A stretch of 40,263 nt of DNA from Flavobacteriales bacterium (lineage in GTDB: Bacteria > Bacteroidota > Bacteroidia > Flavobacteriales_D > Sanyastnellaceae). Positions 21,422 to 34,335 of this stretch are shown here, one piece after another (position 1 is the stretch's first letter; each line of letters opens with the position of its first letter). The translations under genes and the position numbers were made by a program. The DNA is taken from assembly GCA_947464415.1 (NCBI GenBank), contig CANHWU010000007.1:1-40263 (forward strand). The letters run 5' to 3'. The notes under the pieces were generated by a model. It saw only the letters and a list, made by a program, of their open reading frames with translations. It was not told the DNA's origin and did no database searches.

Positions 21422-22282
21422 TTAAATTTCTAGCTCCGTTTGGTGCAATGATCGCCCTTTATCATCTTTCACCACCAAATAATATTGCCCCTGCTGCACT
21501 CCCTCCAAATTGGCCTGCAATGTGGTAGCGTATTCTCCAGGAGCTACTGATTGATCATGTCTTAAATAGCGAACCACCTTTCCCTCACCATCAATGATCA
21601 AAAAGTCCACAGAGATCTTCTCCTTTGCCGTAAAGGTTACTTCCGCAGTGATTTGTTCAGCTATTCCCGTAAACATGAACTGACTCTCCTCAGAAGGTGC
21701 TTTGTAAAGTACGCTGTATTTTGGCAGAGGCACCTTCATGGCAGCTGCCACGGCATTCGCAAACTTTCTGCCATCCTCGTTGGCAGCGTAAATCGTGCTG
21801 AACGCATGATGATTGGTAAACATCCACACCAAATTTTGCATCTGGCTATTGTCATCCAAACGTTGCGTCTCCAATTGCACAAGCACCCGAACCATTTCAT
21901 CAGGCGCCATGCGTGTTTTGACAAATCCTTCAAAATCGATGGGAGCCCCTGGCGCGGAAGCATTGCCGCAGTACCCTGATAGATGAAACTCTTTGGTTTC
22001 ATTGGGAGCCAAAGCCAATAGCTTGGACCGAGTAATCACAAAAGGTTGATAATGCTCATGGCTCTCAAATATTCTACCATTTTCCAAATCCACCAACATG
22101 GAATCCTTGCCATGATTCTTTAAACGCAAGGCCAATCGTGCAGATCCCAATCTTTGCACTTTGGCTACAAAGCTCACTGCTTTTTTCTTCAAACCTTCTC
22201 CAAACTTTACTCGCTTGGTTTGGGCATTGGCGCTAAATGTCACTACCAGTAACAGCGCGCCGATAATCATCCTTGTTTTCAT
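21422..22282 (-). CDS. Uncharacterised exported protein
   Basis: A 286-residue protein with a clear signal peptide (MKTRMIIGALLLVVTFSANA, cleavage near residue 21). The mature part looks like two beta-rich regions around a helical middle: residues about 35-120 (ARLALRLKNHGKDSMLVDL, LAPNETKEFHLSGYC), a helix-prone stretch about 140-190, and a C-terminal Ig-like or sorting-like sandwich with VDFLIIDGEGKVV, LRHDQSVAPGEY and QGQYYLVVKDDKG. I do not recognise the family. The C-terminal strands resemble secretion-tail folds, but the T9SS consensus (YPNP) is absent. Its ATG overlaps the preceding stop (ATGA). Confidence 0.6.
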   Translation of the reverse strand: MKTRMIIGALLLVVTFSANAQTKRVKFGEGLKKKAVSFVAKVQRLGSARLALRLKNHGKDSMLVDLENGRIFESHEHYQPFVITRSKLLALAPNETKEFHLSGYCGNASAPGAPIDFEGFVKTRMAPDEMVRVLVQLETQRLDDNSQMQNLVWMFTNHHAFSTIYAANEDGRKFANAVAAAMKVPLPKYSVLYKAPSEESQFMFTGIAEQITAEVTFTAKEKISVDFLIIDGEGKVVRYLRHDQSVAPGEYATTLQANLEGVQQGQYYLVVKDDKGRSLHQTELEI

Positions 22283-23007
22283 TTTTTCTCCTTTTTTTGA
22301 TTCAACTTATTCTCCGCTAATAATTGCTTTTTGCTCACTTTGATGTCCCATTTTCCCGAAATCAACTCATCCTTGGTCAACTCATCTAAACGCTCAATGG
22401 GGTAATTTTTCCATTCTACTCTTTTTCCTTTTTTATCTAACCAAACGGCATCCACTCTAGCTGTAGCGGGTGGTAAATCCACCGGAATTTTAATGGTCCT
22501 GTTGTTGAATCCAACTTTGTATTTAAAGACAAAATTTAAAGTGGGATCGGATAATTGGAAAGACTTTAATTGATAACCAGCCGGCAAAGAAACGGTTACT
22601 CCTTTTGTCTGCTCTAACGGCACCATCATGGCATAAACGCCTTGATCCAAAATGGCCACCTCTTCAAATTCCTGTCTTCTCAACAAAACCTTCTGCACCT
22701 TAACACCCTTCATCAAATTCCATGTTTTTAAAAAAGGGTCCCATTGATACAGTTGAATTTCTTCCCAATCTGTTCCTCTCTCATGGGGGAAGTGGACCAC
22801 CACCTTTTCCCTTTGTTGAAACTCATCTGACCAAACCAAGTCAAATGCGTGAAGACATTTCATCATTTTTCCGTTGGCTGCCTGCGTGTGGTAATTTTTT
22901 ACGATGTCTTGAAAATTCAACTCCTTGACTTTTGCCTGAGCGAAACCTTGCAAGGCGTAAAAAGCCAGTGCCAGACAAACGGTGATTTTTTTAAGCATGT
23001 TTTTCAT
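22279..23007 (-). CDS. Uncharacterised exported protein
   Basis: A 242-residue protein starting MKNMLKKITV with a signal peptide ending near FAQA; a longer frame to 23031 would run back into the previous gene. The mature part is beta-rich with many charged and aromatic residues (VVVHFPHERGTDWEEIQLYQWDP cut across two strands near residues 68-90, YAMMVPLEQ, AVWLDKKGKRVEW). It ends in a Lys-rich tail (NKLNQKKEKK). A single Cys is present in the mature part (KCLHAFD). I recognise no family. It sits between two other exported proteins with similar size and style, so a shared envelope or secretion role is inferred only from context. Confidence 0.55.
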   Translation of the reverse strand: MKNMLKKITVCLALAFYALQGFAQAKVKELNFQDIVKNYHTQAANGKMMKCLHAFDLVWSDEFQQREKVVVHFPHERGTDWEEIQLYQWDPFLKTWNLMKGVKVQKVLLRRQEFEEVAILDQGVYAMMVPLEQTKGVTVSLPAGYQLKSFQLSDPTLNFVFKYKVGFNNRTIKIPVDLPPATARVDAVWLDKKGKRVEWKNYPIERLDELTKDELISGKWDIKVSKKQLLAENKLNQKKEKK

Positions 23008-23017
23008 GTTACTTGTT

Positions 23018-24148
23018 TTATTGGTTAACACTGATTACTTGTTCTTCTTGCCCCTTTTTCCTTTGTTCCCAGCGCTCATTCAGCGCAGCATACACGCGAT
23101 ACCAATCCTTTTGAAGCATCGCCAAAGTAGCAACAGACAATTGTTCTTGAATCATCTTGTTGTTCAAATCTTGAATTTCAAACAACACATAGGTATCTTC
23201 TGGATAATCCACTTTTGGTAAGAAAATAAAACGCCGATTGTCCATCACTACTGCGGGACCTACAAATTCTCCTCTTGGATCCAGCATGGTAGCATGAAGG
23301 ATGGTACAATGCTCCTTGTAAAAAAAGACACTCTCTTTCTGATGGGTCTTCCTTTTACTCGCTATGGCGTATTTTCCGCTTTCTTCAATTTCAAATTCCA
23401 AACTGTACATCTTACCATTCTTCTTTTGCTTTACAGGTTCTGGAGAAAATAAAATCCACTCACCTGTTTGATCCGACAACACATAGAGATACAGCTTGTC
23501 GTGGCACTTGCTTTCGTCATTCACCACCTTCACTTCCCAAGGGCGGTGGATAAAACTACCTACTGGCATTTCCACTTCCAGCACACTGTGGAGCTTTAGG
23601 AAATCCCCATCAGAACTGGTTGTGGTAATTTTTCCGAGCAACTCCTGACAAGGATCTAAGTAATGATGAAAGTGAGTTTGAACATAAATAGGAAGATCCT
23701 CTGTCAGGCATGTAACCTGCCATCCATGCTGATTAACAAGCATAGAATCCAATTTGTATTGCACTTCTTCCCCTTCCTTTCTTGGCGTGTAATAAATAAC
23801 CACTTGAGCAGAACTGCCACTTGGCATGAAGGGATAAACCTTTTCTGACAAAACAACCACATGCTCCTGCTTCAACAAATCAAAAAACCACTGTTTGCGC
23901 TTGGCGCCCCATTTTCCTTCAGAAAACAATCCAGGCTCATGGGCCACCACCACTTCTTTGGCAGTGTACAATTGTTGAACAGCACTGTAAAAAACACCCA
24001 AGCTATTGGCATCCAACTGGGCAGAATTGGATTCAAATGTCAGTTCAATACTGATCATTTTTTCCAACTTCCTCAGTGTGTTGAACGCATTTTGCGCATG
24101 TGCGATGAAAGGGGTGCACAACATCCCCATGAGCATGATCTTATTCAT
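23018..24148 (-). CDS. Uncharacterised exported protein
   Basis: A 376-residue protein with a signal peptide (MNKIMLMGMLCTPFIAHAQ). The early mature part (LTFESNSAQLDANSLGVF at residues about 36-53) looks somewhat like the start of an OmpA-type peptidoglycan-binding domain. The remainder of that fold is not clear, so I do not assign it. Later parts are beta-rich (FSPEPVKQKKNGKMYSLEF, FVGPAVVMDNRRFIFLP), with a helical charged C-terminus. It is the first gene of a three-gene run ending in the hairpin at 21363. The function is unknown. Confidence 0.55.
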   Translation of the reverse strand: MNKIMLMGMLCTPFIAHAQNAFNTLRKLEKMISIELTFESNSAQLDANSLGVFYSAVQQLYTAKEVVVAHEPGLFSEGKWGAKRKQWFFDLLKQEHVVVLSEKVYPFMPSGSSAQVVIYYTPRKEGEEVQYKLDSMLVNQHGWQVTCLTEDLPIYVQTHFHHYLDPCQELLGKITTTSSDGDFLKLHSVLEVEMPVGSFIHRPWEVKVVNDESKCHDKLYLYVLSDQTGEWILFSPEPVKQKKNGKMYSLEFEIEESGKYAIASKRKTHQKESVFFYKEHCTILHATMLDPRGEFVGPAVVMDNRRFIFLPKVDYPEDTYVLFEIQDLNNKMIQEQLSVATLAMLQKDWYRVYAALNERWEQRKKGQEEQVISVNQ

Positions 24149-25507: not shown

Positions 25508-26035
25508 TTAATCTTCTTTATCAGCTGTTTCTGTTTGATCCGCTACAGCAATTAAATCAAACTGTGGTATTTCAGAAATTTCCAAGAAATGACTTGTAAT
25601 TTTGTCGAGATAACCCTCTGTAATAATATCGTCTTCCAAATACAATTCGATGTCAGAGAAACGGGCTAGAATTGTTTCGTCACTTACATTTAAACGATGT
25701 CGTATGTTCTTGAAAAACTTTATTTCTGAATATTCAATTTGCTCGTCTGCTTTAATTGTTTGAATTGCAAAATCAAGCAAAGTCAATTCTTCTTGTTCAT
25801 TTAGTTTTGCCTCCTTGAGGAGGTTAAAATAATACTGGATAAAGGTTTTGCCACCATGGTTAATCTTGCTAACGAGCAAATTGATTTCATCTTGAAAGTT
25901 GAAATTGGCAAACAAGGTTGATTTTTCACATAATGATTTAAGTATGGAAATTTCCCTATCATCGATATTTCCATCTGCAGCCATGCAGCAAAAAGCTGTC
26001 TTTAGTAAAAGTTTATCAAAAGTAATTGTCTCCAT
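25508..26035 (-). CDS. TerB-like domain protein
   Basis: A 175-residue all-helical acidic protein, starting METITFDKLL (the frame upstream to 26095 overlaps the previous gene). The N-terminal CMAADGNIDDREISIL (17-32) and a second copy IKADEQIEYSEIKFF (94-108) match the paired acidic helix-turn motifs of TerB/DjlA-type domains, thought to bind divalent metal. In DjlA a TerB-like domain is joined to a J domain that works with DnaK; here it is a separate gene in an operon with Hsp70. It is the last gene of the cassette, 16 bases after the kinase/AAA gene. Confidence 0.68.
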   Translation of the reverse strand: METITFDKLLLKTAFCCMAADGNIDDREISILKSLCEKSTLFANFNFQDEINLLVSKINHGGKTFIQYYFNLLKEAKLNEQEELTLLDFAIQTIKADEQIEYSEIKFFKNIRHRLNVSDETILARFSDIELYLEDDIITEGYLDKITSHFLEISEIPQFDLIAVADQTETADKED

Positions 26036-26051
26036 GTTTTCTGTTTTTAAA

Positions 26052-27857
26052 TTATTTCTTGAAACCAATTTTTGATCTTTCACCGCTCTGAACATTGTTT
26101 TCGCCGTCCACTTTCGCCTTCATTTCTTCGTATTTTCTTAATTCACTCAATGACACTGTGGGTTTTGTATTCTTTATTACCTGCTCCAAAATATCCATGG
26201 ATATCCTTGATTTTGTCTTCAACGCTGACCTCGAAGCTTCATTGACCAATAGTTCAATATCTGCTGAAACATAGTGCTCGGTGAGGTCTGATAGTCGAGC
26301 GTAATCAATTCCAAAATCCAATGGACGATTTTTTAAATACATCTCAAACATCGATTTTCTCGCTTCAAAATCAGGCGGCGGTAAATAAAACTTTTTGTCC
26401 AAACGTCCAGCCCTGAGCATTGCAGGATCTATCAGGTCAGGGTAGTTGGTTGCGCCAATAATAAAAATACCTTTTTCACCTGTCCTATCCATTTGAGCCA
26501 ACATCTCATTCACCGCGCTTTTAGCCATTTCATGAGCATCACCATCACGACTAGGCAAGAGCTCATTTATTTCATCAATGAAAATGATGGTGGGTGCATT
26601 TTTCTCCGCTTCCTCAAACATCTTAGCTATGTTCTCTTGTGTGGCGTTTATAAATCTGCTTTTCAAAGTTGATGGCGTTGCCAATAAAAAATTAAAGCCA
26701 ACTTCCTCTGCGAAGTGTTTAGCAAAAAATGTTTTGCCACATCCAGGAGGGCCATACAACAACATTCCATTTGGAATAGTAACCCCATATCGAGCATATT
26801 CCTCCGGACTATCCAGTGCATCAATCACATCCAATTTCAATTGTGCCTTCAACTCCTCCATTCCTGCTATGGCAGCAAATCCCTTTCCTTTGGCTTTCTT
26901 ACTCTGGATTTTTTTCTCTGCGCTGTTGCCTGACTTTACTTTTTGAATCCTGTCCACGTCCTCCACTTCAATTTCGCCGTTCAACGCTCGGAGAAACTCA
27001 TCTGCACTTTGAATACGATCTTCTGAATCTTGACAAAGCGCTTTTTTCAAAAGCAAATTGGTGCGCTCTTCAAACCCAATAAAGTCATTTGGAATTTTTG
27101 AAAGTGAAAGAGGTTTACTTCTTTCCTGTAAGATAAACTCTTCCGCTTTAGCTCGATCTAATTGAAATTGTGAGATGTCTTTAAACCAAGGGGGAAGTCC
27201 GAATAGCAATTGATACATCACTGCTCCAACAGAAAAAACATCACTCTGCGGCGAATACAAACCATTAAAACACTCGGAGGCGGTGTAATTCAAATTCAAT
27301 CCTTCCTTATTAAATGCTTTGGTTGATTGGTGGAATGAACGGGCAAAACCAAAATCTATGATTCTTGCCTTTGGAACATCTGCCGATAAATCGAGCATGA
27401 TATTATGGGGTGTAATTTCATTGTGAATAATTGGATTCGGTAAACCGTGCAAATAAATTAACCCCTTTAAAACATCTGCAATGATGGACTGAACATCGTA
27501 GTAATTGTTAAACGACTCTCGGCTCATTCGCTCAGCCAAAGTTTCACCAGCTATGAAATTCAACACCAAATAACCATACTTCTTATTCTCAAAAATCAGT
27601 TCTCCACTATCCTTGTAAGCAACAACATTATCGTGATCAATTTCTTTCAAGAACTCAATCTCAAGCAAATTGTTTTCTTTGTCAAATGCTGAACGATGGA
27701 GTTTAGAATAGTTGAAAAGCTTAAGGAAATACAATTTGCCATTCGTTCCCTTTACCCTATACGTTTGAGCATTACTTCCTTGCTTGATAAAAAGCAAAAC
27801 GGTGTATTGATCGTGGATTGAAAAGCCCTTTGGTAATGTGCCAATAGTATTACTCAT
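26052..27857 (-). CDS. Protein kinase-like domain fused to AAA+ ATPase
   Basis: A 601-residue cytosolic fusion. Residues about 15-290 are a eukaryotic-like Ser/Thr kinase fold: Lys46 in YFLKLF, alpha-C Glu67, DFG at 168-170, SDVFSVG at 205-211. The glycine loop is degenerate (IKQGSNAQTY) and the catalytic HRDLKPxN is HNEITPHN (145-152), so Asp is Glu and Lys is Thr, pointing to a pseudokinase or very weak kinase. Residues about 325-560 are an intact classic AAA domain: Walker A GPPGCGKT (369-376), Walker B IIFIDE (424-429), sensor GATN (468-471), Arg fingers Arg482/Arg485, and a possible pore-loop Phe402. It starts one base inside the Hsp70 stop (TAATG), so translation is coupled. Confidence 0.88.
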   Translation of the reverse strand: MSNTIGTLPKGFSIHDQYTVLLFIKQGSNAQTYRVKGTNGKLYFLKLFNYSKLHRSAFDKENNLLEIEFLKEIDHDNVVAYKDSGELIFENKKYGYLVLNFIAGETLAERMSRESFNNYYDVQSIIADVLKGLIYLHGLPNPIIHNEITPHNIMLDLSADVPKARIIDFGFARSFHQSTKAFNKEGLNLNYTASECFNGLYSPQSDVFSVGAVMYQLLFGLPPWFKDISQFQLDRAKAEEFILQERSKPLSLSKIPNDFIGFEERTNLLLKKALCQDSEDRIQSADEFLRALNGEIEVEDVDRIQKVKSGNSAEKKIQSKKAKGKGFAAIAGMEELKAQLKLDVIDALDSPEEYARYGVTIPNGMLLYGPPGCGKTFFAKHFAEEVGFNFLLATPSTLKSRFINATQENIAKMFEEAEKNAPTIIFIDEINELLPSRDGDAHEMAKSAVNEMLAQMDRTGEKGIFIIGATNYPDLIDPAMLRAGRLDKKFYLPPPDFEARKSMFEMYLKNRPLDFGIDYARLSDLTEHYVSADIELLVNEASRSALKTKSRISMDILEQVIKNTKPTVSLSELRKYEEMKAKVDGENNVQSGERSKIGFKK

Positions 27858-30391
27858 TATCTTAAAGTTGTACCATCGTCATTACTTGGATCAATTCTCA
27901 AATCCCATATTTGATGAAGTATTGGACGTAATTGACTTGTTTTACCTTCTTGAATCAATTTTAAACCTTGATTAACCAATAGGCGCGCTTTGTTTTTATC
28001 CTTCCACTTTAAGTTCTCAAACTCTCTATCGTGGTATTCTAAGCGACCTTTGTCTACCAATCCCCCGGAAACTGAATTCCTTAACTCTCTGTCAAGGCTC
28101 TCAATTTCTTCGGTCAATTCTTTGGCTTCCCTTAATTCCTTATGCTTAATAATATGCTCAATCGTTCGCTTGAATTCTTGAACATGTACTTCTATTTTAT
28201 CCATGTTCAAATCTTCGTCATGACTATTTGCCTTTATCTTTTTTATTAAATCCTCCAATTCATAGAAGGCATCTTTTAGCTCTTTCTCAACTTTTGGCCA
28301 TTCCGCAACTTTTTCAGCTCCATCTAACTTTAATAACTCTTTACGTAATCCGTCCAGAATTTTCATTTTGCCATCCGCACTTCCTTTTTCATTTTCCAAT
28401 TGTTCTTCAAAAGCATCCAGTTTTTCGGCAACATCATCCGCATTTACTTTTTGTGCAATTTGTTTTGCTTTTGAAATTTCTTCTGTCAAAAATTCTTCTG
28501 TTGGAGGTTCAGTTTGCTTTATTTCAATTTCTAATTCTTCAGTATGATTTAACAGTGGGAAATAAGCACTGAATTTCATTAGTTGAGAACCATCAACTTT
28601 AATTGTAATGTCTACATCACTTCCTTCGGGTAACAATCCCGGCAATGTCTCACCAGTTATTATTACTTCATTTACTAAGTTATTTAGCGTTGGTGTTGTA
28701 CCTTCTGAATTATATTCTCCTTGATAAATTGGAATGCGAATAATGTCTTTAATCATCCCAGGTCTAATCGCACTTCTTGTTTTTAAACCATTTCTTACTC
28801 CAGTAACAGGAATAGATTTGTTTTTTTCTAATCCTTTCACACAAGCAAATCTATCATCTTGAAATTCTGAGAAATATTTTCCTATTCCAATATTATATGG
28901 AAGTACTTGCATTTTGTCAAGCCCCCCTATACCTTGTATAATGCTAAATTGATTTGGTTGGCAATCCAACTTATTTCCTGCTTCATCATAAACATTTATT
29001 TCAAACGAATTGGAACGCCCCTCAACCAAAAGTACATCAACAATTGTAGCTTTTTCTCCAATAAGTTTCTTACCACTAGACCATAAACCATCAAAACGAA
29101 CTACATCAGCATAAATTTTATCAGGAAAAGTACCGGTTGTTTTTTCTTTCAGCACTCTCAAATTAACCATTTCGTCAAATTCAACGGTAGTAGCTTCATA
29201 TTTAATATCAAGTTGAAGTTTGGTTTTGTCTCTTGTGGTTTCTTTCACTTCTTCTGATACAGATATGGTAGAAGCAAATAATGCTGCACCTTTTGCTACC
29301 ACTGTCATCGGGTCAACAGAAGTGTCAACTTTATCAGTGATTTGCTCTTTAAGCATTCTACGCAAAATTGGCGAATAAGTTGGGCCACCAACCAAAATCA
29401 ATGCGCCAAGGTCAGAACCTTTTAAGTTGTTTCGTCTCAATAATTCTTTACTAATGTCAATTGCTTTCTGAAAAATTGGAGCAACAACATTTTCCATTTC
29501 CTTTTGAGTAACTAAAACATCAATTTCGGGCTCATCCCCATTGTCGTCCTCAAAAGGCAAATCGCCTAAATTTGATAGTATATTATGTGAATCTTTAAAT
29601 GACAACTGAATTTTTGCTTCCTCAGCATAGAATTTTACCGCGTTTCTTAAAATCTCCTTTTTGTTTGTATCGTCCAATACACTATCAATAGCATAATTCT
29701 GTTGAAGATTTGGAATGATAATTTGGTCAACAATGGCTTCATCTAAGTTTTTACCCCCAAGCCAGTTATCGCCATCTGTATCTTTAACTGCTAAAATTCC
29801 TTCTTCCGCTTTTATCAAAGCGGCATCAAAAGTTCCACCACCAAAATCGAACACTAACCAAAATCCGTCTTTACTTTTTGAACCAAGACCATAAGCAGTG
29901 GCGGCAGCCACAGGTTCTTGTAATAGTTCAATGTGCTTGAAACCTAACATTTTTGCTGCTTCTTTCGTCGCCTCATTTTGAGGATTCAAAAATTTTGCAG
30001 GAACAGTAATTACAATTGAATTAATATTCTCATCCTTTACAACTGTTTTAAGTGTTTTCAGAATTTCAGCCGATAGTTCTTCAGAGGTATAAGACCTATC
30101 CATATTTGAACTTTCATAAGAGTGAGTCGTTCCCATTGTCCGCTTAAACTCAATGAAAGTATTTGTCTTTCCAGTTTCAAATGTTTTCAACGCTCTTGCA
30201 TTGTCATTCTTCATGGTGTTATAAGCAGCATCACCTACAATGACATCTTTCTTTTTGTTAAAATGAATACACGATGGAAAAGTGTCTTTAAGAGTTTCTG
30301 ATTTCTTAATTGTTGGAACTCCGTTTTCCATTCTTGCTATTGCTGAATTTGTTGTTCCTAAGTCAATGCCGTAGTCAATTTTATTTCTCAT
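27857..30391 (-). CDS. Hsp70 family chaperone with long helical C-terminus
   Basis: An 844-residue protein, about 200 longer than DnaK. The ATPase domain is intact: phosphate-1 loop YGIDLGTTNSAIA (7-19), phosphate-2 FDFGGGTFDAALI (181-193), adenosine motif VGGPTYSP (334-341), and the connecting EPVAAATAYG. Residues about 380-640 are beta-rich, replacing or diverging from the usual substrate-binding domain. From about 645 to the end is a long charged helical region with coiled-coil character, without the EEVD-like or acidic tail of standard DnaK. This is not the housekeeping DnaK. It is followed directly by the kinase/AAA gene and preceded by the GrpE-like gene. Confidence 0.9.
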   Translation of the reverse strand: MRNKIDYGIDLGTTNSAIARMENGVPTIKKSETLKDTFPSCIHFNKKKDVIVGDAAYNTMKNDNARALKTFETGKTNTFIEFKRTMGTTHSYESSNMDRSYTSEELSAEILKTLKTVVKDENINSIVITVPAKFLNPQNEATKEAAKMLGFKHIELLQEPVAAATAYGLGSKSKDGFWLVFDFGGGTFDAALIKAEEGILAVKDTDGDNWLGGKNLDEAIVDQIIIPNLQQNYAIDSVLDDTNKKEILRNAVKFYAEEAKIQLSFKDSHNILSNLGDLPFEDDNGDEPEIDVLVTQKEMENVVAPIFQKAIDISKELLRRNNLKGSDLGALILVGGPTYSPILRRMLKEQITDKVDTSVDPMTVVAKGAALFASTISVSEEVKETTRDKTKLQLDIKYEATTVEFDEMVNLRVLKEKTTGTFPDKIYADVVRFDGLWSSGKKLIGEKATIVDVLLVEGRSNSFEINVYDEAGNKLDCQPNQFSIIQGIGGLDKMQVLPYNIGIGKYFSEFQDDRFACVKGLEKNKSIPVTGVRNGLKTRSAIRPGMIKDIIRIPIYQGEYNSEGTTPTLNNLVNEVIITGETLPGLLPEGSDVDITIKVDGSQLMKFSAYFPLLNHTEELEIEIKQTEPPTEEFLTEEISKAKQIAQKVNADDVAEKLDAFEEQLENEKGSADGKMKILDGLRKELLKLDGAEKVAEWPKVEKELKDAFYELEDLIKKIKANSHDEDLNMDKIEVHVQEFKRTIEHIIKHKELREAKELTEEIESLDRELRNSVSGGLVDKGRLEYHDREFENLKWKDKNKARLLVNQGLKLIQEGKTSQLRPILHQIWDLRIDPSNDDGTTLR

Positions 30392-30412
30392 ACTTTGAAA
30401 TTATATTATTGT

Positions 30413-31321
30413 TTAGTAGCCAACAGAAACTTCTATTTGGGCTGTTTGAATCATTTTGTCATTATACATTACGGCAGGTATTAAAATTTTCGATATTATT
30501 TCCTGCCCCTTTTCCAAATTTTCATCCGGAATTGAACTTGTAACTATTACCTTTAATCCCTGATGAAACTGTTTGCCCAGGAGTTCAGGCATCTCATAGC
30601 CATTAGCAGAAAGATTGTCTTTCAATTTTCCAACGGATGCTTGTAACTGTTTCAAGCCTTTCGTTTTTGAATCCATCAAATTGATGTTTCTCTCAATTAG
30701 ATTGATTTCACTTGCAACTTTCAAAGCCAAAGAATGGTCGGGTTCTGAATTTGGGTCTTTTCCGCCTGCTCCTTTTAAATCATTTATCAAAACCAATAAT
30801 TTCTCTATCAAATCCGCTTGCTTTTGAAACTCGACTACAATGCACTCATCAATCGACGATTTGGTCTTGCTCAACTGATCAATAAAATCTGTTTTGTCGA
30901 TTTGTTGCCTTTTATTCAACAACCAATACAAAAGCCCCGACAGCAAAATGGCTAAAAGCACTCCGATAATTCCGTAAAGAGAATTTTTACTTAATGATTG
31001 GTCTACCTCATCAATTCTCTTGTTGGCAGTTTGTTCAGTAGTTGTAATCTGAATGCCTAATTGATTTGCAGTTTGTGAAATGGCGGAGCTATTTTCTTCC
31101 GTTTTGTTTTTTAAACTATCTATGCTCTTTTTTTCATTTGAGAGTTTACCATTTAGATCACTAATTTCAGTTTTCAAACGGCTATTTTCTTTTTGCAAGG
31201 TTTGAATACTTGATTTCAAAGGTTGTAATTCCTTTGCGAAATCCTCTTTAGTTAATGTCTCTGTTTGGGCAAAAGCATTAATGCTTGCCAAAATAAAAAC
31301 GGTTACAATTATTCGTTTCAT
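30413..31321 (-). CDS. Membrane-anchored coiled-coil protein with GrpE-like cytoplasmic domain
   Basis: A 302-residue protein starting MKRIIVTVFI (the longer frame to 31351 lacks support). It has a signal peptide (1-18), a long coiled coil (about 25-110), and one membrane helix (115-136: LYGIIGVLLAILLSGLLYWL). The cytoplasmic part starts NKRQQIDK and is helical to about 237. Its last 65 residues resemble the GrpE beta-wing: an LSANGYEMPELLGKQFHQ segment, an IPDENLEKG turn, then IPAVMYNDKMIQTAQIEV, where GrpE has an R-P-A-x-V-x-V type ending. GrpE is the nucleotide exchange factor of DnaK, and this gene lies 21 bases before the Hsp70 gene. The assignment is by motif and context only. Confidence 0.65.
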   Translation of the reverse strand: MKRIIVTVFILASINAFAQTETLTKEDFAKELQPLKSSIQTLQKENSRLKTEISDLNGKLSNEKKSIDSLKNKTEENSSAISQTANQLGIQITTTEQTANKRIDEVDQSLSKNSLYGIIGVLLAILLSGLLYWLLNKRQQIDKTDFIDQLSKTKSSIDECIVVEFQKQADLIEKLLVLINDLKGAGGKDPNSEPDHSLALKVASEINLIERNINLMDSKTKGLKQLQASVGKLKDNLSANGYEMPELLGKQFHQGLKVIVTSSIPDENLEKGQEIISKILIPAVMYNDKMIQTAQIEVSVGY

Positions 31322-31335
31322 TTTATTCTTTTTTA

Positions 31336-32892
31336 TTAGCCTCTTATCCAACCAATCAATACCATGATGCCTAAAAATGTCGCAATACTAAATACGACTT
31401 CTATACCCTCTTCTCCCCAGATCAAACCAACCAGTATCAAGAAAACGATAATTCCCAAACACCACTTCGCCCACAGTGGAAGTGATTTCAACGTGAGTTC
31501 CGCATTGGCAACTTTATTCTCGGTCTTCCAATAACAGATGTATTTCACCTTATTAACCTGTAAAAAGCTCAGCTTTCCTATTACAAAATCAACTAAATTT
31601 TTATATTCATTCAATTGAGTTGAATTGGCCATAATCTTTATTTTCTCGACGTTTTTATGCGTAATCGTTTTCAATATCAAATCAACAACCTTGTCCCAAT
31701 CAACTGACTTTTCTATCATTTGATTTACTTTGCTCCAATTGATTGTTTGATTAAATCCTAAAGGCATTGCATGAACCTCAGCTGTGATTTTAGTTTTGTT
31801 GGTTTCATATGCGTTCTTAACTGATCTTAATAATTCTAATGCGCTATTAAGTTCTTTATCTTTCATTCTTGAAAGCGTTTCAATGCTATCTTTAATCCTG
31901 TCCTTCGTTAGTTTTCCAAATGCAACTCTCTCGGCTTGCTTCGCCAAGTGCAAAGCAATTTCTAAATAATTTTCACTACTTTCTTTTTCCTGACTTTCAT
32001 TGAAGTAATCAATGCTACACTGTAAAATTTCGTTTGCTAACTTATCAGAAATAGATCCTAACTTTATGTCATCCTCACCAACCATAACTTTAAGCTGCTT
32101 CAAGTCATTTTCTGTTGAATTAAACAGTTGTTGACCTGCCTTGGCTGCTTCGGATTTACTCGCTTTCCTTCTGTTTCTTGCGCTTTCTATTTCTCTCTCT
32201 ATTTTCTCAATAGGCTTTTGAATAAATCCTTTGAGGAAATCTTCTTTGGCCAAGAACTCTTGCTTTTTTAATATGTCCAAGAATCCATTGGATGTTACAC
32301 TACCTGTTTTGTCAATTTCAGATTGGACTTGCTTCAGAAACGAAAGTTGGAGTTCTTTTGGCGAAGTTTTAAAGGTCTCATCTGCAGCCAAAGCTTTAAA
32401 ATCTTTTATGAAATCGCTTTCAAGAAATTTAAGTTTCAAAGTAATGCCCTGTTCTAGGATCGCTTCATTGGTATTCGTTCCTTCTAAAATCCCACTTAAA
32501 TAAAGTGTTCCCAGGTTGTGATACGCGGAAGCATTTCGTTTAGAAACTTCCCCATTTGTTGTCAGTTTGGACCAGATGCTAATTACTTGATCTAGATCCC
32601 CTTCCTTTATGGCATCAAAGGCAGGTTCATCGGTGATTGGATTCCCATTATAAAACCAGAAGAGGGCTGCACCCATTTTATCACTATCCAAGTTGAGTTT
32701 TGATGCCGCTTCATTTACTTGCTCGATTGTTCGATTAAAATGTCCCAGAGGTCGGAAAAAATAGTCCTCAGGAGGATCCTGATCTGCTTCAAGATATTTC
32801 GTGAGTCTACTGATCTTTTTTGTTTGTTCCTTCGCGCTCGTTCCAACAAGCAGTCCAACGATTCTGTAAGGGTTGTTTAATACGGCATTCAT
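31336..32892 (-). CDS. Membrane protein with J-domain-like N-terminus and helical repeat region
   Basis: A 518-residue protein. Residues about 7-66 (NPYRIVGLLVGTSAKEQTKK, then a charged helix KYLEADQDP and a late helix TIEQVNEAASKL) have the order of a J domain: YxILGv-type start, basic helix II, loop, helix III. The loop lacks HPD. Residues about 75-130 have TPR-like helix pairs (AFDAIKEGDLDQVISIW, ASAYHNLGTLYLSG); about 230-390 is charged and coiled. Two membrane helices (about 468-488 and 493-515) close the protein, so the bulk is cytoplasmic. It is 14 bases before the GrpE-like gene. It is probably the co-chaperone of the cassette, though possibly only a J-like relic. Confidence 0.62.
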   Translation of the reverse strand: MNAVLNNPYRIVGLLVGTSAKEQTKKISRLTKYLEADQDPPEDYFFRPLGHFNRTIEQVNEAASKLNLDSDKMGAALFWFYNGNPITDEPAFDAIKEGDLDQVISIWSKLTTNGEVSKRNASAYHNLGTLYLSGILEGTNTNEAILEQGITLKLKFLESDFIKDFKALAADETFKTSPKELQLSFLKQVQSEIDKTGSVTSNGFLDILKKQEFLAKEDFLKGFIQKPIEKIEREIESARNRRKASKSEAAKAGQQLFNSTENDLKQLKVMVGEDDIKLGSISDKLANEILQCSIDYFNESQEKESSENYLEIALHLAKQAERVAFGKLTKDRIKDSIETLSRMKDKELNSALELLRSVKNAYETNKTKITAEVHAMPLGFNQTINWSKVNQMIEKSVDWDKVVDLILKTITHKNVEKIKIMANSTQLNEYKNLVDFVIGKLSFLQVNKVKYICYWKTENKVANAELTLKSLPLWAKWCLGIIVFLILVGLIWGEEGIEVVFSIATFLGIMVLIGWIRG

Positions 32893-32893
32893 A

Positions 32894-33442
32894 TTATTTC
32901 CTTTGAGTTACAACATAAAATTCCCAGGTGTAACCCATATTGCTCGCCATATTCTCTGTTCCAATGTTCGGTATTACACCTGGTGCGGAAGCTCGATAAT
33001 TATATGAACCTGGACTTAATGTAAGTATTTGTTTTTGCTTAGGTGAAAAAATATAAGTATCACTGTTTAGTTTTAGAGTCAATGTCAATGCAGTGTTATT
33101 GTAAATTTCAATTTCTGGCTTGTATGAAGAAGTTCTACCATTCGGGGTAAACATCCCGCTCTCATTTTCCCTGATTCGTTGACCAACGTTTACAAATGAT
33201 TTATGAATAAACCCCTCCCTATCAGTTGCGATATCAATTATGTTATAGAAATCATTCTCCGGTTCTAAGGATATAATGAATACTTGTGATCTTGGAGCCA
33301 ATGAGGCAATTATAGGATATTCTTTACCCGGCCCTTCCCTGAAGTTCACCTGTTTCGTCACCGTTCCCAAATATGACTGGCTAAACCCTATTGAAGTAAG
33401 GGCAACGGAAAGTATTAAGAGGAATAGTTTCTGAATTTGCAT
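32894..33442 (-). CDS. Exported bacterial SH3-domain protein
   Basis: A 182-residue protein starting MQIQKLFLLI (the longer frame to 33556 is not supported), with a signal peptide cleaved near FSQS (residue 22). A bacterial SH3 (SH3b/SH3_3) domain spans about 24-85, with TKQVNFREGPGKEYPIIASL and a final DREGFIHKSFV. The C-terminal half (108-179) is a separate beta domain with YIFSPKQKQILTLSPGSY, somewhat like small PEGA-type or fibronectin-like folds. SH3b domains in the periplasm often bind peptidoglycan or peptides. It is the first gene of the chaperone cassette and ends 1 base before the J-like gene. Confidence 0.78.
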   Translation of the reverse strand: MQIQKLFLLILSVALTSIGFSQSYLGTVTKQVNFREGPGKEYPIIASLAPRSQVFIISLEPENDFYNIIDIATDREGFIHKSFVNVGQRIRENESGMFTPNGRTSSYKPEIEIYNNTALTLTLKLNSDTYIFSPKQKQILTLSPGSYNYRASAPGVIPNIGTENMASNMGYTWEFYVVTQRK

Positions 33443-34005: not shown

Positions 34006-34335
34006 ATGGCTAAGGTGATCATTGGACAGGAAATCAAACGAATTGTTAAAAAGAGGGGGATAACAGTGGAGGAATTGGCCCAAGCTCTCAATGTTTCAAA
34101 ACCCAATGTCTTTGATATTTACCGCAGAGAATCCATCGATACAGGCCTGCTGGAGCGACTATGCAAAGTACTTAACTACAATTTTTTCAAATCTTATTAC
34201 CTACAATATCAAACTGAACCAGAAAAAGAAACCATTGAATTGTACAAAGAGCAAGTTGATTTTCTTAAAAATATCATTCACGAAAAAGAGGAGTTGTACA
34301 AGGTCTTGATAAAAGTAATAGAGAAGAAAGCATAA
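34006..34335 (+). CDS. HTH (XRE-like) transcriptional regulator with coiled-coil tail
   Basis: A 109-residue protein. Residues about 5-60 form a helix-turn-helix of the lambda-repressor/XRE type: IGQEIKRIVKKRGITVEELAQ, then the recognition region NVSKPNVFDIYRRESIDT, and RLCKVLNYNFF. The C-terminal half (65-107) is a charged helix (EPEKETIELYKEQVDFL to KVIEKK), probably for dimerisation. It faces away from the Mod remnant and the chaperone cassette, with AATAATAG repeats in between, so it may control them or itself. It could also relate to the peptidase operon 116 bases downstream. Confidence 0.82.
   Translation: MAKVIIGQEIKRIVKKRGITVEELAQALNVSKPNVFDIYRRESIDTGLLERLCKVLNYNFFKSYYLQYQTEPEKETIELYKEQVDFLKNIIHEKEELYKVLIKVIEKKA

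Follow-up and report, generated by a model that had tools for sequence, protein, structure and literature searches.

A recurrent gene cassette of Bacteroidota with its own Hsp70 and a transmembrane GrpE-like protein, a candidate antiviral system

Introduction

In the DnaK/DnaJ/GrpE machinery J-stimulated ATP hydrolysis requires a contact between Arg167 of DnaK and Asp35 in the HPD motif (PMC7289447, PMC13012618). Components of this kind are also found in conflict systems. In the predicted GAP1-N2 GTPase conflict systems, which are GTPase-centred and occur mainly in actinobacteria and firmicutes, HSP70 and GrpE are accompanied by a DnaJ domain in a partner protein and by kinases elsewhere, according to Kaur et al. 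2020 (PMC7159879). Type III CoCoNuTs contain defence-linked Hsp70-like proteins with nucleotide-binding domain (NBD) and substrate-binding domain (SBD), and their Hsp70 is predicted to be a poor ATPase (PMC11090510). The phage sensing of the NLR-like NACHT protein bNACHT25 depends on the host DnaJ (PMC12169576). Here, we describe a six-gene cassette on the minus strand of contig CANHWU010000007.1 from a Flavobacteriales bacterium (assembly GCA_947464415.1; positions 1 to 40,263, the whole stretch analysed, are called the window). Its genes encode an SH3 protein, a J-like protein (JL), a GrpE-like protein (GRPL), an Hsp70, a fusion of kinase and AAA domains (KAAA) and a TerB-like protein. The cassette is real, recurrent and apparently undescribed.

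With DnaK/DnaJ/GrpE it shares an Hsp70 with intact ATPase residues and a nucleotide exchange factor of GrpE fold, both belonging here to one operon. It differs in that GRPL is tethered to the membrane, its coiled coil probably lying on the opposite side, that JL has no HPD motif and the Hsp70 no arginine for contacting it, and that its accessory genes share an operon with the kinase-AAA fusion and TerB. Compared with the GAP1-N2 systems, the AAA-kinase fusion, TerB and the membrane-tethered GrpE are not among the parts described in the accessible text (PMC7159879), and the Pfam scan of the six cassette proteins revealed no GTPase. CoCoNuTs are built on a McrB-type GTPase, coiled coils and nucleases, whereas the same scan of the six proteins gave no McrBC parts. 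Finally, bNACHT25 borrows the DnaJ of its host, whereas the cassette itself encodes an Hsp70 and an exchange factor. No named defence or stress system was found that has an Hsp70 together with its own transmembrane GrpE as core.

Gene order, distribution and mosaic exchange

The first-pass annotation of the window had listed six minus-strand genes forming one operon. The reading frames and gap lengths match exactly; from the TerB end to the SH3 end the intergenic gaps (natural starts) comprise 16, -1, 21, 14 and 1 bases, and the operon reading stands also by the order of the core genes, which is kept across loci. A JL profile scan of one genome per species yielded 91 relatives in 80 loci, nearly all of them in Bacteroidota, with Flavobacterium, Chryseobacterium, Bacteroides and Prevotella among the genera; two come from metagenome-assembled genomes labelled Clostridia. 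JL, GRPL, Hsp70, KAAA and TerB follow each other in this order in 54 of the 80 loci and most of the remaining ones are cut by contig ends. JL is adjacent to GRPL and GRPL to Hsp70 in 78 loci, and KAAA follows within four genes in 67 of these 78, with 8 of the 11 exceptions running off the contig. The identity between JL proteins of different loci falls as low as 24-30%. An arrangement that 54 of 80 independent loci share in full cannot be due to chance, and the gene order is kept across Bacteroidota, beyond close relatives.

The cassette is rare. When 394 other Bacteroidota genomes were searched with the GRPL profile, 5 of them (~1.3%) gave strong matches; the five weakest of the eleven profile matches (E 5e-7 to 3e-10), which covered just the N-terminal half, were rejected as coiled-coil false positives. 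In the window it lies in an island of low GC content (0.34-0.38 across 25-34.5 kb vs ~0.41 outside). Four genomes of the same genus share the bordering uridine kinase and ArsC genes (ArsC 83-87% identical) and lack the cassette; this flank is all that they share here and other genes follow beyond it, so that no clean empty site was obtained. Three more minus-strand genes of the window (21422-24148) are also absent there in these four genomes, which points to a second variable segment beside the cassette. Integrase-like genes accompany the cassette at 10 loci, mobilisation genes at ~4.

Further genes accompany the core in part of the loci. A membrane protein of ~102 amino acids (aa), lacking in the window, follows TerB in 39 loci (among L013-L095) and a lipoprotein-like protein of ~225 aa stands between Hsp70 and KAAA in 18. 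Upstream of the window cassette a small divergent helix-turn-helix gene (34006-34335, XRE-like by eye) could encode a regulator. Beside the cassettes of L013, L012 and other loci recurring frames of ~100 codons ("MQFAQANAQTKNCKRACF...") were observed that look like a dispersed non-coding repeat and not like a gene.

Cassette genes and JL tails have been swapped between lineages independently. Loci L013 and L020 are 97% identical in TerB and 94% in SH3 but only 50% in Hsp70, whereas L013 and L037 share 84% in Hsp70 and 94% in KAAA but 46% in TerB. JL tails that are 60-70% alike sit atop JL cores that are 30-35% alike, and the tail of the window JL is 63% identical to that of Lunatimonas (L025), compared with 41% for the whole protein. 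Such a mosaic may be likened to the exchange that is common in conflict systems.

Hsp70 and the loss of the canonical J contact

The Hsp70 of the window (27857-30391, minus strand, 844 aa; Pfam 8e-66) has a catalytically intact NBD and a divergent substrate-binding region and C-terminus. Its closest homologue on plasmids, from Haliscomenobacter hydrossis, is 78.6% identical. Among 74 cassette Hsp70s the ATPase residues (DnaK numbering) are almost invariant, with K70 present in 73 and E171, D194 and T199 in all 74. At the position of R167, in an alignment to the genome's own DnaK, 67 of these proteins have glutamate and 7 glutamine; the window protein shows Glu155 (29927-29929, minus strand) at the position of Arg167, the HPD contact of E. 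coli DnaK. The corresponding residue in the proteobacterial cousins treated below is valine or alanine. The genome has a dnaK of its own, as well as dnaJ and grpE genes that stand next to each other, on other contigs; the Hsp70/GrpE pair of the cassette is distinct from these and a dedicated one, as had been proposed. Two tandem Hsp70 genes are found in the cassettes of L014/L071, L048, L024 and L040; one of them is probably a regulatory or specialised paralogue.

JL (31336-32892, minus strand, 518 aa) comprises a degenerate J-like N-terminal region, a helical solenoid and an exchangeable C-terminal tail. Residues 5-82 (32647-32880) follow the pattern NPYRxxG ... R54 ... A..L..D.DK..AxFWF, of which the first and the last part recall by eye helices I and III/IV of J domains. 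The HPD motif is absent from all 62 JL sequences. In the hhalign comparison with the genome's own DnaJ helix I is aligned in register within a weak match, and the JL profile run against PDB sequences retrieved the J domain 2cug (E 0.72) among three matches below threshold. Pfam assigned no significant family to the window protein and the DnaJ family to none of 48 homologues. The AF2 (AlphaFold2) model (mean predicted local distance difference test, pLDDT, 90.5) is entirely helical; searched as a whole against PDB folds with Foldseek and VIA-align it gave no significant match, with the N-terminus barely covered. An identity with canonical DnaJ was therefore rejected for JL on the Pfam counts, the fold searches and the weak hhalign result. 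The name J-like denotes a resemblance in sequence and J identity is unproven. Thus, the J-like membrane co-chaperone of the first-pass annotation finds no support as written and the cassette does not encode an ordinary trio of J protein, Hsp70 and nucleotide exchange factor.

Since HPD is missing in 62 of 62 JL proteins and R167 is lost in 74 of 74 Hsp70s, the canonical J–Hsp70 contact must be absent or rewired; its loss from both partners is firm. Position 54 of JL, just ahead of the third main helix of the model, is basic throughout (arginine in 61 and lysine in 1 of 62). With Glu155 on the side of Hsp70, a swapped-charge contact between JL Arg54 and Hsp70 Glu155 is possible, for which covariation is uninformative as both positions vary too little.

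The GrpE-like membrane protein

GRPL (30413-31321, minus strand, 302 aa) consists of a signal-like N-terminus, a coiled coil, a transmembrane helix and a region of GrpE fold. The membrane helix in the middle of the protein (residues 112-137, 30911-30988) is found in 62 of 62 homologues; the coiled coil precedes it and the GrpE domain follows, and residues 190-302 (30416-30754) form GrpE-like helices and a beta-wing domain. In the AF2 model based on 62 homologues (pLDDT 84.6) a long helix is followed by a pair of short ones, and the chain ends in a beta domain. The best 12 Foldseek matches in PDB are all GrpE or GrpEL1 (top E 2e-5, probability 1.00), which bears out the proposed GrpE fold; VIA-align, which scores chiefly the helical part of GRPL, ranked BAG domains and other helical bundles first. 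For the C-terminal domain GrpE is the commonest Pfam match (15 of 43 members, best 7e-4), and hhalign relates GRPL to the small GrpE-like protein of the proteobacterial cousin with E 7.9e-8. Direct comparison of the tail profile with the single GrpE sequence of the genome gave no match and the GRPL profile searched against PDB sequences returned coiled-coil noise or nothing significant. The Pfam GrpE match of the full-length window protein was discounted since it falls on the coiled coil. The predicted fold, the Pfam counts and the comparison with the cousin are the grounds on which the GrpE assignment holds.

Given that the N-terminus is signal-like and that basic residues follow the helix, the coiled coil likely lies outside and the GrpE domain inside. 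That both co-chaperones anchor the machine in the membrane, as was first supposed, is supported for GRPL in all homologues and for JL in many: in the window JL ends in a hydrophobic transmembrane tail (residues 468-501, 31390-31491), in whose place homologues have a single transmembrane segment, a CFI-box or a coiled coil. Of 62 tails 34 are of the transmembrane type, 15 have a CFI-box and 11 a coiled coil without transmembrane segment.

Kinase-AAA, TerB and SH3 proteins

KAAA (26052-27857, minus strand, 601 aa) combines a protein kinase domain (residues 24-283, Pfam 1.4e-35) with an AAA domain (365-493, 7e-37) that is CDC48/FtsH-like by sequence. Walker A, Walker B, sensor 1 and arginine-finger motifs are present in nearly all of 68 homologues. 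The term pseudokinase, used at first sight, is only partly apt. In the catalytic loop of the window protein HNE replaces HRD, but the VAIK lysine and DFG are retained. The catalytic aspartate is kept in 34 of the 68 homologues (33 HND and 1 HGD, the rest having HNE, HGE or another variant) and the VAIK lysine and DFG are mostly retained. In PADLOC the kinase half matches mad6 (3.9e-40) and PD-T4-6 and the AAA half IetA (3.7e-36). With regard to the MADS and IetAS systems this is homology at the domain level only, the scores being 114.8 bits for MAD6 and 108.2 for IteA against NCBIfam cut-offs of 460 and 510.

The TerB-like protein (25508-26035, minus strand, 175 aa) carries a DGxID...E motif, and its match to Pfam TerB (PF05099; E 3.2e-4) reaches 21.4 bits, below the gathering cut-off of 24.4. 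A homologue follows KAAA in 55 loci. Shango is a TerB-containing defence system. PADLOC gave no match for the TerB protein of the cassette. In the same genome a DjlA-like protein (L125, 1486-2256) shows a TerB-like region fused to a true J domain with HPD, a further link between TerB and J.

The SH3 protein (32894-33442, minus strand, 182 aa) has a hydrophobic signal-like segment (residues 2-21), a bacterial SH3 domain (31-84) and a beta-rich C-terminus; its match to Pfam SH3_3 (E 1e-4) lies below the cut-off. Homologues occur in a minority of loci and at times between Hsp70 and KAAA. The signal-like segment and the SH3 match agree with the export protein described at first, but this protein is an optional, movable part of the cassette and not a regular member. 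In Prevotella (L085, L091) SH3-containing proteins of 942-962 aa stand directly upstream of JL or replace it, and a fusion of SH3 and JL is possible.

Cousins and neighbouring defence genes

Plasmid searches with the Hsp70 revealed a proteobacterial cousin of the cassette, composed of a GrpE-like protein of ~115-124 aa without transmembrane helix, an Hsp70, an AAA protein, a J-like protein and a membrane protein that carries a peptidoglycan-binding or SH3 domain. Its AAA protein is related to KAAA (hhalign E 4.9e-36); the alignment covers the AAA part only and for the N-terminus no relation to the kinase was found.

The cousins are located among known defence genes. In Polaromonas the cousin is flanked by Zorya (ZorA, an OmpA protein, ZorC, ZorD) and Gabija (GajA, GajB) with BREX-2 beyond, in E. 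coli HeN100 it lies near RADAR rdrB, a dptF remnant and a CbtA toxin system, and in Aminobacter a GajA-like protein is found nearby. Those of Aeromonas and Shewanella follow Tn7-like transposition genes and thus represent Tn7-like cargo. Within Bacteroidota the five-gene core on the Haliscomenobacter hydrossis plasmid directly adjoins a BREX cluster (brxL, pglZ, brxC). Only 2 of 5,426 E. coli genomes contain the cousin and one of these is a remnant. A 7.6 kb block with the five-gene cousin of E. coli type is present beside integrase-like genes on a contig of a viral catalogue (L154, 3399-10985); it is 88% identical to the HeN100 block but has other integrase-like neighbours. Relatives of KAAA or JL were not found on viral contigs, and among the matches listed for phage records those of Hsp70 were at the level of the NBD only and none was a cousin J-like protein. 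A position in defence islands or on mobile elements is seen for the cousins and for the H. hydrossis homologue, and the signal is only modest for Bacteroidota at large.

Putative function

We consider it somewhat better than an even guess that the cassette is an antiviral (conflict) system, so far undescribed, that spreads horizontally and runs a private Hsp70 cycle at the inner membrane. Since the cousins stand among known virus-defence genes the cassette is probably antiviral, and it is from gene context only that we infer an antiphage purpose. Envelope damage or phage attack had been offered as a guess in the first-pass annotation; the context of the cousins and of H. hydrossis now favours phage defence. 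In such a system the exported coiled coil, SH3 or peptidoglycan-binding parts would serve to sense an envelope event such as phage adsorption, DNA entry or wall damage, or to localise it, and this event would alter the nucleotide exchange on the tethered Hsp70. The latter, together with the J-like solenoid that would replace an HPD-containing J protein, might capture an invader or marker protein, and the AAA ring, with the kinase-like domain as its gate, would remodel the captured complex. Alternatively, the AAA ring might drive a harmful or blocking response via the membrane-active tail of JL. Topology, envelope sensing, AAA output and antiviral purpose thus form the part of the scheme that is proposed and not observed.

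A more specific form is put forward only tentatively. It would be an immune system of a new kind with an orthogonal, membrane-tethered Hsp70 cycle as its core, with a rewired contact between J aspartate and Hsp70 arginine (possibly the charge swap of JL Arg54 and Hsp70 Glu155), with the transmembrane exchange factor as switch for an outside event and with a kinase-gated AAA unfoldase as output. The rewired contact would prevent cross-talk with the housekeeping DnaK/DnaJ.

Several observations weigh against an antiviral role. PADLOC (2023) did not recognise the six-gene set, the cassette encodes neither a nuclease nor a pore-forming toxin nor any other evident effector, and no recognised defence gene was identified adjoining the cassette in the window. 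The J-like protein of the cousins (NPF..LG...) is related to JL only weakly (hhalign E 2.4e-4, probability 44%). Sampled neighbours of the Bacteroidota loci match 99 PADLOC families compared with 16 for an equal control set (128 proteins), a modest enrichment that counts families and not proteins, and ordinary genes make up many of the neighbours. Both the sensing and the killing step of the mechanism are conjectural, and neither a description of the cassette nor a phage experiment on it was found in the open-access PMC literature.

A doubtful alternative is an accessory quality control of the envelope. Under stress the membrane Hsp70 and the AAA protein would extract damaged proteins, either exported ones or those of the inner membrane, and refold or remove them, while SH3 or peptidoglycan-binding parts position the machine near the wall. 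The universal membrane helix of GRPL, the hydrophobic or CFI-box tails of JL, the exported SH3 or peptidoglycan-binding parts and the CDC48/FtsH-type AAA domain would suit this role. A distribution as patchy as ~1.3%, carriage by plasmids and Tn7-like elements, mosaic exchange and cousins in islands of multiple defence systems would nevertheless be unusual for a housekeeping function. Unlikely, too, is a regulated toxin-like (suicide) system with JL and its hydrophobic tail as effector, which Hsp70, the GrpE-like protein and AAA would hold inactive until infection sets it free; as one particular version of the defence role, it overlaps with the latter in probability. The constant JL core with exchangeable transmembrane, CFI-box or coiled-coil tails resembles known systems with swappable membrane effectors, yet 11 of 62 tails are coiled coils lacking a membrane segment, the tails resemble alternative membrane anchors equally well and the whole-model fold searches related JL to no known toxin fold. 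Quite improbable is finally a function for the mobile element itself, i.e. a plasmid-borne cassette, or one on an integrative and conjugative element, that helps to assemble, stabilise or protect a transfer apparatus or excludes rival elements, since the plasmid and Tn7-like carriage and the integrase-like and mobilisation genes mentioned above are offset by many loci without transfer genes within 10 kb, by the lack of a conserved link to transfer operons and by the partners of the cousins, of which those that can be identified most consistently are defence systems.

Concluding remarks

If the antiviral role of the cassette is correct, chaperone-based surveillance at the membrane would join the known principles of immunity. 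With both HPD and its arginine partner lost throughout the family, nature provides an example of an Hsp70 that functions in the absence of the canonical J contact, and a basic question of Hsp70 regulation can thereby be put directly to the test. With the five-gene version of E. coli HeN100 such testing would be cheap.

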